64,000 nt of DNA, taken from positions 2,418,001 through 2,482,000 of the forward strand of contig NEEC01000008.1 in the NCBI GenBank assembly GCA_002189035.1, read 5' to 3'. Made by a program: the position numbers and the translations under genes. Under the pieces are notes generated by a model. The model was not told where the DNA came from and did not search any database. It saw only the letters and a program-made list of their open reading frames with translations. Source of the DNA: Utricularia gibba. Lineage: Eukaryota; Streptophyta; Magnoliopsida; Lamiales; Lentibulariaceae. Below, piece after piece: positions 2,755 to 39,892 of this stretch. Positions within the stretch are counted from its first letter, which is position 1. Each line of letters starts with the position of its first letter.

Positions 2755-4089
2755 ATGTGTGGAGGAGCGATAATATCGGATGTCTTGCCTCCGCTGAGCC
2801 GAACCTCGCGGCGGCTCACGGCGGCGTTGCTCTGGGGTTCGGATTCCGGCGAGCTCGCCGGGAAGGGGAATCGAGGGGTTATCACTCGAAGCCTTTGAGA
2901 TCGCCTCCTCTTGTCAGCTTGGACGATGATTTCGAGGCTGATTTCCAGGATTTTAAAGATCATTCTGACGTTGACGACGAGTTCGACGCCAAAGGCTCGT
3001 TTGAATTTGCTGCTTCTGCGTTTAAAGGTGATTGTCTTGCCAGTAGGTGCTGTATCTGCTTTTTTTTTTTTTTTCTGGAGAGTTGTTTCCAGTAGTTGTT
3101 TTAGAATCTCGTGAAAATGGTAACTGCTGTTCTTCAGTCTTGGCAGTTTATGCTTCGATTTAGAAGTCTATGATTTTTAGTCGATGAGGCTCATGTAAAA
3201 TGTATGATTTTCGATCTTCATCTTTCCATGATTAGGAGGGTTGAGATCTCTCGATTCTTGTGAGTCTGATGAGGAGTGTGAGAAGCCTTCGAAACGGAAG
3301 AGGAAGAATCAGTATCGAGGGATCAGGCAGCGGCCGTGGGGTAAATGGGCAGCTGAGATCCGTGATCCTAAGAAGGGTGTTCGTGTTTGGCTTGGTACTT
3401 TTAATACTGCCGAGGAAGCTGCCAAGGCTTATGATGAAGAGGCTAGAAGAATCAGAGGTAAGAAAGCAAAGGTGAATTTCCCTCAAGATGCCCCTCATAC
3501 TGGTGCGAGACGTGATCTCAAGTCAAATTCACAAAAAGCGATCTCCCAGGAGAACAGGGACTTTGATCACCCCCCTGCAAATGAAATGGAATATATGAAG
3601 ATGCTCAACAATGGCTACTACGACTCTTTGACGTTCTTTGATGAGAAACCAGAAATTAAGCCAAAATGCTTGAATGGCGTTTATGCCCCCACGACGAATG
3701 TGGAGCCAATAGCTCATACGCTATCTGATGATTACTTCAGCCCTGATCAGGGTAGTAATTCATTCTACTGCTCAGACTTGGGGTGGAGTGAAACTGAGAT
3801 CTGTGCCACCGTGCCAGAGATTTCAGCTGTGAACTCTGCCGACATTGAGGTGGGTCAAGCTCAATTTCTAAGCAATGGTAGCCCACAGAATTCATTGCCC
3901 CGCATTGAGAGTTCAGATGCTACAGCGTTTGACTCCCAAATGAAGATGTATCAGGTGTCATACCTTGATAACAACTGGGTCTCTACGATTGATGCTCTCC
4001 TTGATGGGGATGCTACTCAAAATACTGGGCATTCCATGGACCTGTGGTCATTCGATGATGTTCTAGATATTGCTGGTTGTGCCTTCTGA
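2755..4089 (+). CDS. Group VII ERF transcription factor (RAP2.12/RAP2.2-like), apparent one-base frameshift
   Basis: This is an AP2/ERF factor of the hypoxia-sensing group VII. The protein opens with MCGGAIISD, the Cys2 N-degron that plant cysteine oxidases oxidise to couple protein stability to oxygen. Exon 1 is 2755-3027 and exon 2 is 3236-4089. Exon 1 also carries [13 protein letters not shown]. Exon 2 holds the AP2 domain ([36 protein letters not shown]) and the C-terminal activator motif MDLWSFDDV. The N-degron is in one frame, whereas SKPLRS and DDDFEADF are one base out. A missing G in the GGGG runs at 2865-2868 or 2875-2878 would explain this. A 92-base GT-AG intron (2826-2917) would also restore frame but would remove the conserved-looking SKPLRS segment. 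Expected role: activation of fermentation and low-oxygen genes. Confidence 0.88.
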
Positions 4090-35541: not shown

Positions 35542-36320
35542 TGAACAATTATTACCAGGTTCAAGGAGTATATTGGAAGACATGGGGGCCGCCATAGGGG
35601 ATTTTTCTGCCTGAAAAGGCAAGGCCCGGAATGCTCTTAAAAGGACACTACTTGTACATCCACATCCAATGAATGCGGCGGTGCCGGAAAAGGAAGGCGG
35701 GGACGGAGAAAGGAGGAGTGGGAGTCAAGAAACGTGGGGAGGATAAATAAAATACACCAATAAAATCCCTCTCACGCCCCGCCAGGCGCCACCACAGACA
35801 CGTGATCCACATGGTGGATGATACTCCCCACATGAATGAATAAATAAATAAAAGAATTGGAATAAATTACGTAATTAACATAAATATCCCCGGTCCCCAC
35901 AAGAGACAGAGATTATTAAAATATTACATAGTGGACGGCCAGGGGTTGACCGTGACTTTGACATGTTCGATTGAAATCACACGCCAGCGAAGGAGGGAGG
36001 CTTCTTTCATTTAAACCACGTTTCTAGATAACCCTAATTCCCCATGTGTGATTTATTACCCGAGGAGTTGCATAAACCCTAATTTATTACCGGATGGGGG
36101 GCATAAGCAAACCATGAAATGAAAAGGGGATTTGGGGTTGATTGATTTGACGGAAAATGGGTGTTAAGACAATTCCTCGTCATTTGTGCAGTGTTTAACG
36201 TGGATGCCTATCCAGATTCACAGTTGAAGAGTAAGCTGGAATTTTCTCTTGGTTGCCATTCCATCAAGCAACTTCCTTCTCGCCTTCCATTTCCTTTCGC
36301 TTCTCCTGCTCTGTGTGTGT

Positions 36321-36330
36321 GTATATATAG
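36321..36330 (+). promoter_or_regulatory. TATA box of the DMP gene
   Basis: GTATATATAG follows a short GT run and lies 65 bases before the ATG at 36395. This fits a plant core promoter with a leader of about 35 bases. Confidence 0.5.
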
Positions 36331-36394: not shown

Positions 36395-37623
36395 ATGGTG
36401 GCCGGGAGCCAGGCGGCCTTCAAGGGCCTGAGCAGTCTCTTCACACATCTTCCCACCGGAACGGTCTTCCTGTTCCAGTTCCTCAGCCCGATATTGACCA
36501 ACAACGGCCAGTGTAGACCGGTGAACAAGATCTTGTCCAGCTCCTTCATCTTCCTCTGCAGCTTATCATGTTTGCTCTTCGCCGTCTCCGATAGCTTCAC
36601 CGACTCCGACGGGAATAAGGTCTTCGGCATCGCCACCAGGACGGGGATGTGGCTCGGGTCCCGGGCGGTGGCTCGAGACGACTTGTATGAATATAGACTT
36701 CGGGCGGGGGATTTGGTGCACGCCTCCTTCTCTTTGATTGTTTTTGGTGCCGTCGCGCTTCTTGACTCCAACATGGTGAACTGCTTCTACCCGGAGTTCC
36801 AGTCCACGCAGGGCATGCTCGTCATCGTCATCCCCACCCTCATCGGAGCCATATCCGGCATTGTGTTCGTCATGTTCCCGAACAAGCGCCACCGACTACG
36901 GTATGCTTTGTACTATTGGTACCTCTATTCATTCTATAACACACACAAAACTAGAGTTCCCCGTCATGAAACCCTCTTTTACGTAAACCCGTACGGCATA
37001 TCGGAATGTGAACTTTAGGCACCGCATTGTATTTATCGTATCGTCCTCCTGCATGAACAATTGTCGTTCCGACGGGCATTCTAATGAACTCTTTGAATTG
37101 TCGTTTCAGATTGAAGCAAAAGGCAGGTGGTGCCTGGACGGTGGAGAGCGAAGAGACGCAGGCACCAGAGATGAAAAAGGAGGAACACGCACCAGCGCAG
37201 GGCGTAGCATTTCATGAACCAGAGGAGCAAACTCCAAGCATCTCCTACTTCGTCACCAACTTCCCCGAACACATGACAGCAAAGGATCTCTGGATCATCT
37301 TCACCAGATGCATCGGTCCCGTCGTGGACGTCACCATCCCCGGCGCCCGGACAAAAAGAGGGGCCCGCTTCGCCTACATCCGCTTCCCCGTACGGTCTCT
37401 AGACGAAGAGCTGGAATGCGCCCGCCGGATTTCCTGCGCCTGGTGGGGCGGCTACAAGTTTGTGGTCTGCCCAGCCCACTCGCAGAGGTACACCGATCAC
37501 TATCATCCGATGCTCATTTCTTGTCCCCCCGAGCCGCCGCCACCGGTGAACCACGCGGCCAGCAGTAATTCTAGGTTGCAGCCCCCGGCGCACCAGCTCA
37601 ACGAGGTTCGTGTTGAAAGATGA
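36395..37623 (+). CDS. DMP (DUF679) membrane protein, possibly spliced to an RRM-like exon
   Basis: The first part (36395 onwards) is a DMP protein, a plant four-helix membrane family linked to senescence, ER remodelling and, for some members, gamete fusion. Blocks are LPTGTVFLFQFLSPILTNNG, LSCLLFAVSDSFTDSDGNKV, GDLVHASFSLIVFGAVALLD, VNCFYP and VIPTLIGAISGIVFVMFPNK. Read straight through, it stops at 37018 with an unusual tail after RHRLRY. A canonical donor (ACG-GTATGC, 36901) and acceptor (TCGTTTCAG, ending 37109) would instead join it in frame to an exon ending at 37623. That exon encodes an RRM-like domain (ISYFVTNFPEHMTAKDLW, RGARFAYIRFP), as in LINE-type RRM proteins. The second frame could alternatively be separate, but only 65 bases divide it from the DMP stop. 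Confidence 0.7.
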
Positions 37624-39892
37624 ACCTCTTCTTCTTCTTCTTTTTTTTTTTTTTAATAATTTTTTGAGAGAAGGTTTGAAATCAAACCAATTCTCTAACG
37701 ACATCCACAATTCATTCATTTTTTTTTAATTTGACATATTTTTTTCTTGTTGCAATGTACATGTTTTATCAACTATTACATTTTTTTTATATTATTACAT
37801 ATTAATCAGTGTCTTACGGTTCAAATCATATTATCGATTGGGTCCATATCGCATCGATTCGACTTTGAAATCCGATTTTGAAAACACATATGCACAATTA
37901 TCTTATCAAATAATACTTCAAAGGCGGCGACAATTACATAAAATGAGACGTGGAAGACTCCCTTATCTAAAAAATTGACCTCCTGGATCAAATAATGTGT
38001 CACTATCCATAATCTTATAATTTTACATTCTTTTTTTAAAAATACTTCGTACAAGACTAGAAGTATTCATCTACCATTTGTCACCAATATATTATATTGT
38101 TACTAGCCTCCTAAGCTCACATAATGGTTATGTCCAAATTCTAGGATTAGGGTTTGGGTTAAAACTAAAATGCTTTCGGTCGATCCGTACATTTCTAACC
38201 GGGAAAAAATATTATTTATTACATAATTTATCTTGTCTGGTGTATAATTTGTTATTTAGAGAATATTATTGAATGGAGATTTAAATTACTTAATGATGAT
38301 ACTCGATGATCCAATGCCTCATTAAAATATTATAAGAAAATTTACACGTATTAATTAATAAAATTACCAATTGAATTTGCAGGTGTGAACTTGGGATTTT
38401 CGTGAATTTCCACGTGTTTCAAAGATAACCCCCGTGTCCGTGTCTAAATCCGTGTCATAGCTTCCGGATCGGGGAATGTATGGCCTGCTGCTTGTTTCAG
38501 GTTCCTTCAACTTCTTTTTTCCTTTTTTAGACGAAAAGTTTGAAGGGGACAACGCACCCACACCCCAAACCTAGAAGCAAGAACCCAAACCATCACGTCT
38601 CGACATGCAAAATAATTATTAATTAATTGATTAAACTTTAGAATATGCTCTGCTTATTCCTCCCTCAAGCATTAAATTCCGAGAAAATCTTACAAAATCG
38701 ATCTATGAAAAAAAAGTAAAGTTAATATTAATTAATTAATTTTTTTCTGCCAATAATTTAAAATTTAATATTAAACTTTGAGTACTTAAATATTTTTTTC
38801 GCATATACGTCTAATTTGATGTTTTTTTAAATGAATGTATAGAACTAAATGATTAAGGGTAGTATAGTAAATAAACACATTAAAACATGTTAAATTGAGA
38901 ATTTTCTGATTATTGATGGTTCTTCTTTTATTTTTCTTTTCTTTTTTTGTGTTAATTTATAGTAAAATGGTCAAGCTGGGTACGGGTCGGATTCAGCGGG
39001 TTATGAGTTGAACCCACCGGGTTGGAAATTGATTTCATGATTCAGTGGGTACGGGTCAACAGGTCATAAAGGACGACCAGTCTCAGGTCATGGGTTGACT
39101 TGGGACAGAGTAAATTGAAGTTATTTAATGTTTAAACATTACAATTGTATGTTTATAATGTCTAAGAGAGTCATTGAAGTATTTTATATTTAGTCACTAT
39201 AATTGTATATTTGTAATGTATGAAAGATTTATTGAAACACTTCGATATCTAGACACTACAATTGTACATTTGTGATGTTTAGAAGAGAGCACCAATTCAA
39301 ACTCATTGACCAGTCGAGTCAATCCATGCACCTCTTACTTGTTACGATCCATTTTGGATGATTACAAATAACGTATCAAATCCATCACAAGTTCTTTAAT
39401 AGGTGTATCCCATTTCTAGTAAAATGGTCATGTGTATCCCTTTTTTTAAATTAATTTTTTTTTCAATTTCAAGTTCTTTAATAGGTGTATTTGATTGAAT
39501 TCAATAATTACGAGTGGTAAAATATGTTATGATATTAATGTTCCTACTATTTGAATAAAAAAAATAAAAAAATTAAATATTATTCATCATAATAATTATT
39601 TGATGATTTCAATTAGTAGGAGTATATATATTTTTATGTAATATTTTATATAATTATATAGATTAAATGTCATTTAAAAAAGAAAAAAACATATTTGAAT
39701 GATTTTGTTTGAATGAAGAACATGAACCTCGTATCACTTTATTTATCCCATCTTCTTACAAATCTTTGTTCGAGAACTTTGTTACAAACAAAGACAGTTT
39801 TCGACGCCCTGATGCGCAGCACAGGGCAGAGGAACAAGAAAGATACATGGTTTCATTCAGTTATTCATCAGAAGAGATCTCTCTGCTTCTCC
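37624..39892. other. AT-rich intergenic region, DMP-RRM to PPDK
   Basis: This is mostly AT-rich and ORF-poor. It contains a degenerate tandem repeat at 39127-39290. A small GC-balanced island lies at 38364-38580 with a 65-codon minus-strand frame of unknown meaning. Confidence 0.55.
39127..39290. repeat. Degenerate tandem repeat, about 60-base period
   Basis: Three related units each contain CACTA-CAATTGTA, then TTTGTAATGT and AAG, and then ATATTTAG or ATATCTAG. Divergence between copies is high, so the array is old. Confidence 0.5.

Follow-up and report, generated by a model that had tools for sequence, protein, structure and literature searches.

Positions 36395-37623 of the window (the 64,000-nucleotide stretch of Utricularia gibba DNA analyzed here, C414:2418001-2482000 in a 100-Mb plant genome set, whose numbering is used below) probably hold a real gene for a membrane-anchored RNA-binding protein, in which a DMP membrane domain is joined to an RNA recognition motif (RRM) of the kind found in open reading frame 1 (ORF1) of long interspersed nuclear elements (LINEs). 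Comparison with a duplicate copy makes us nearly certain that the two halves form one spliced gene of two exons. The fuller reading, a 339-amino-acid DMP-RRM protein with both domains under selection, a LINE-derived RRM, retention in the endoplasmic reticulum (ER) and a role in tethering RNA, is the one that we favor, with somewhat more confidence than doubt. The parts of the gene are as follows.

36395-36900, + strand: exon 1, the DMP (DUF679) four-pass membrane domain, ending in phase 2 (PF05078, 182.4 bits against a cut-off of 25; four long helices in an AlphaFold2 model)
36886-36905, + strand: C-terminal RH-GIGY motif of DMPs (RHRLR in this gene), whose codons contain the donor G/GTATGC (the slash marks the splice site)
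36901-37109, + strand: intron of 209 nucleotides (nt), 99 nt in the duplicate, with conserved ends and a core that cannot be aligned between the copies
37081-37085, + strand: branch-point-like CTAAT, 25 nt 5' of the acceptor, seen in the sequence
37110-37623, + strand: exon 2, encoding a linker, the RRM and a proline-rich tail that ends in NEVRVER; open in both copies

The first-pass annotation had proposed a donor at 36901 and an acceptor ending at 37109, and these coordinates are right: GT stands at 36901-36902 and AG at 37108-37109, and 36395-36900 joined to 37110-37623 gives 339 amino acids free of stops. Its remark that the join involves no phase error is true but weak taken alone, because 70 GT/AG pairs within the stretch leave the frame open, and frame agreement was not used as evidence for splicing. 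When the RRM and the DMP domain were each used to search the genome, both led to one further shared place, C3:399,044-400,021. The duplicate gene there spans C3:~399,035-400,156 (L028:3536-4657) and carries both parts in the same order, an ancient paralog whose architecture bears out the fusion through the proposed sites. The copies are 77-80% identical in the DMP domain and 76-78% in the RRM. The donor G/GTATG and the acceptor TTTCAG/ATTGAAG are common to both; in the duplicate exon 1 ends in CCTAAG/GTATGT and exon 2 begins at TTTCAG/ATTGAAG, in phase 2 as in the window copy. The final GTTGAAAGATGA is identical in the two copies, the stop context is the same, and indels in exon 2 are of whole codons only. 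At the end of exon 1, 70 of the last 80 nt are identical, whereas the alignment of the intron cores does not stand out from that of shuffled sequence (911 of 1,000 shuffles reached a score as high). Between the copies, the DMP exon and the RRM have similar ratios of nonsynonymous to synonymous divergence (dN/dS of 0.18 and 0.19, respectively) at almost the same dS (0.64 and 0.68), and silent changes are in significant excess in each (Fisher P = 3e-13 for the DMP exon, 2e-7 for the RRM). Agreement in splice sites, phase and stop, an intron that has diverged and exons that are both under purifying selection place the fusion above chance level. In both copies the first conserved gene beyond the fusion is one for a PEP-utilising enzyme on the opposite strand; another gene follows at 51.4 kb, and this order is collinear in C3. 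The two parts were thus duplicated long ago as a single unit, and the pattern of substitutions indicates that both have been kept under purifying selection since then. A haplotype copy or an assembly duplicate is ruled out by the dS of about 0.65 and the unrelated introns.

Read without splicing, the DMP frame from 36395 runs to a stop at 37018, and the RRM frame has an ATG at 37084, 65 bases past that stop, as the first-pass annotation correctly stated. This ATG is what would speak for two neighboring genes, with a DMP gene that stops at 37018 and an RRM gene that begins at 37084, an arrangement to which we give next to no probability. The ATG sits inside the CTAAT site, in nonconserved intron sequence, whereas the splice ends are conserved. 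The RRM frame of the duplicate lacks any methionine between its last stop and the end of the RRM, the first being in the tail at L028:4565, so that a separate AUG-started RRM gene is excluded there; the methionine-free frame and the conserved splice ends led us to reject the two-gene arrangement. The read-through DMP tails after the motif (YALYYWYLYSFYNTHK... and YVSYFAVGFPLYLC...) are unrelated between the copies, which also argues against it. Because of these unrelated tails, the idea that alternative splicing yields both forms lacks comparative support; an unspliced form might still occur as a by-product.

The second exon contains the following features.

37237-37491, + strand: RRM domain of LINE ORF1 type (PF00076, 25.9 bits against a cut-off of 20.7; predicted fold, tree position and dN/dS as given in the text)
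37246-37263, + strand: RNP2 motif YFVTNF, identical in both copies
37363-37386, + strand: RNP1 motif ARFAYIRF, identical in both copies except for the first residue, (A/T)RFAYIRF

An AlphaFold2 model built from the two copies gave the order beta-alpha-beta-beta-alpha-beta at predicted local distance difference test (pLDDT) values of about 66-86, and the top PDB fold matches of this model were RRMs. For the origin of the domain, it was compared with LINE-like frames and 40 host RRMs, all from the same genome, the host sample being those with the best Pfam scores. A profile of the two fusion RRMs ranked LINE-like frames first, and the fusion RRMs scored 33.6 and 28.7 bits against a LINE profile versus 15.6 and 19.5 bits against a host RRM profile. 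In a tree based on 86 columns and containing some long branches, nine LINE-like rows (one of them, L012, without a proven LINE context) and the fusion split from the 40 host rows with support of 99/88. For two of the LINE frames, a reverse transcriptase lies some 2 kb further downstream, on the same strand, and every match of a genome-wide protein search, apart from the pair and L012, was a LINE-like frame. A LINE-type origin of the RRM, which the first-pass annotation had suspected and which these comparisons with RRM and LINE profiles and the tree bear out, is therefore likely. Type I ORF1s, including those of plant L1 elements, carry an RRM plus a CCHC zinc knuckle (PMC4120745). Exon 2 contains no C-x2-C-x4-H-x4-C spacing and no further Pfam match above the cut-off, and a listing of reading frames gave no open frame longer than 83 amino acids on the + strand from 37,624 to 39,700. 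Since the RRM stands without the knuckle, it appears to be a captured domain rather than a LINE. The L012 row itself (C2:1997032-1997250) is an RRM-like frame that occurs once and matches the fusion RRM at 33% identity; it has no evident LINE context and could be another captured domain.

That the RRM came instead from a host RNA-binding gene, its likeness to LINE RRMs being distant or convergent, would fit the modest identity of the fusion and LINE RRMs (about 38%), the missing knuckle in exon 2 and the presence in the LINE group of L012, with its lack of a proven LINE context. The tree support and the search, in which all matches outside the pair and L012 were LINE-like frames, make this origin unlikely. 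We give about the same low weight to the view that there is one spliced gene whose RRM serves protein contacts, such as dimerization, and not RNA. It has a precedent in OSCA1.2, a plant membrane protein that uses an RRM fold to dimerize with the RNA surface covered (PMC6265326). In both copies of the fusion, however, the aromatic positions of RNP1 and RNP2, which are typical RNA-contact residues, are kept, and the domain is related to the RRMs of LINE ORF1 proteins, which are presumed to bind nucleic acid. Less probable still is a third idea, in which the captured RRM acts against LINEs, preventing retrotransposition by binding LINE RNA or the ORF1 protein where the fusion sits in the membrane. 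The LINE-like profile scores and tree position and the recovered LINE RRM copies, most of which are broken by stops, would agree with it, yet decayed LINE copies are usual and the identity to present LINEs is only 38%.

Several points weigh against our own reading, in which a LINE-derived RRM is fused to a DMP protein and exposed to RNA. The fusion and LINE RRMs share little more than a third of their residues, and because the host sample comprised the top Pfam scorers, some atypical host RRM might be nearer. Exon 2 scores modestly as an RRM, and its AlphaFold2 model is confident in that domain alone. The single spliced gene is deduced from genomic DNA, RNA binding by the exposed RRM is a prediction from its kept motifs, and the data on ER retention that are used below stem from Arabidopsis DMP1 and not from the fusion protein.

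In the DMP half, the modeled helices lie near residues 21-34, 42-64, 104-123 and 139-160, the fourth stopping eight residues short of the splice, at residue 160. With one exception, the other full-length DMPs of this genome lack an intron and finish with R[HRY]GIG, a short tail and the stop codon; in the remaining one the GIGY motif carries a frameshift. A DMP gene with a frameshift in its C-terminal GIGY codons, L019 (C413:4615596-4616066), reads FPKQGMG and then a stop, and is perhaps a decaying copy. Both fusion copies have lost GIGY, with RHRLR-LK (RLRL) in place of the RHGIGF/Y of their relatives, and the donor lies inside the codons of the motif, in agreement with the overlap that had been noted. 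GIGY codons (GGN-ATH-GGG-TAT), for example GGAATAGGGTATCCC, already include GGTAT, while the fusion genes have CGACTACGGTATGC and CGCCTAAGGTATGT at this place; the donor thus probably arose within the DMP motif. In Arabidopsis DMP1 both termini are cytosolic, ER export is impaired when AAAA replaces GIGY, and GFP fused to the C-terminus leads to retention in the ER (PMC5383025). With the membrane orientation taken from DMP1, the fusion protein would consist of the four-pass DMP domain followed by a linker of about 45 amino acids, the RRM and the proline-rich tail on the cytosolic side, and by analogy it may be retained in the ER.

These observations suggest a sequence of events that we put forward tentatively. 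An ORF1-type LINE sequence lying downstream of a DMP gene without introns would have supplied the RRM, and a few changes at the GGTAT of the GIGY codons would have produced the 5' splice site. In a bolder version, in which our doubts slightly outweigh our belief, a single event would at once have cost the DMP its export signal and given it a domain for binding RNA, domesticating a LINE ORF1 RRM through a donor made from an ER-export motif and leaving an ER-resident tether in two copies since the old duplication. Loss of GIGY and the bulky C-terminal extension would hold the protein in the ER, where the exposed RRM may bind RNA, and the protein would then anchor or sort RNAs at the surface of this or another endomembrane. 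Such tethering is a plausible, predicted function. If the scheme is true, an RNA-binding domain of a transposon has been converted into one fixed to a membrane, by way of a coding motif that also serves as a splice donor. The selected and duplicated DMP-RRM gene yields testable predictions, namely ER residence and an RNA cargo. DMPs are also of practical interest for haploid induction, gamete fusion and senescence, and to our knowledge integral membrane proteins with an RRM of the RNA-binding type are rare.

Compared with known DMPs, the fusion has the full domain with four helices and its identity to the closest intronless DMPs in this genome is about 50%, but it differs in the intron at the GIGY codons, the RLRL in place of GIGY and some 170 additional amino acids with an RRM. 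Surveyed DMPs are mostly intronless, and a survey of 24 species gave a single DMP domain (PMC11477165). Unlike plant L1-type ORF1s of the same genome, with whose RRMs it groups in sequence, the fusion has no zinc knuckle, no endonuclease or reverse transcriptase was seen attached to it, and its RRM is present once per duplicate under purifying selection. The first-pass annotation knew of no membrane-anchored RRM of this design, which is too broad: OSCA/TMEM63 channels, likewise plant membrane proteins, carry a cytosolic RRM fold, although their membrane domain is unrelated and the fold has a role in dimerization with RNA binding unlikely (PMC6265326). The EKA effectors of powdery mildews similarly derive from LINE ORF1 coding sequence turned gene; they are fungal and not fused to a membrane protein (PMC4641428). 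Literature joining DUF679 with an RNA recognition motif was not found in a search largely confined to openly accessible papers, the sequence comparisons being within this one genome, and novelty of the architecture is thus not claimed.

Two features lie upstream of the gene.

36322-36329, + strand: TATA-like box TATATATA, about 70 nt 5' of the start codon, seen in the sequence; a TATATATA-type box stands at the matching place in the duplicate
36218-36300, + strand: conserved noncoding stretch adjoining the promoter on its upstream side, found by DNA alignment of the two copies

The latter matches L028 ~3370-3440 over about 65-80 nt, 5' of the TATA-like box, and the apparent likeness exceeds the neutral expectation at the dS of the pair, so that it is possibly a regulatory element under conservation. 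Elsewhere in the genome, a tandem DMP pair (L018, L023 and L026; C4:3298429-3300728) has its second gene split over two frames, which suggests a frameshift or a sequencing error. The same RRM exons with equal scores occur on two contigs, at C81:33662-35128 and C451:6701490-6702956, and may represent a haplotype duplicate that the assembly retained.
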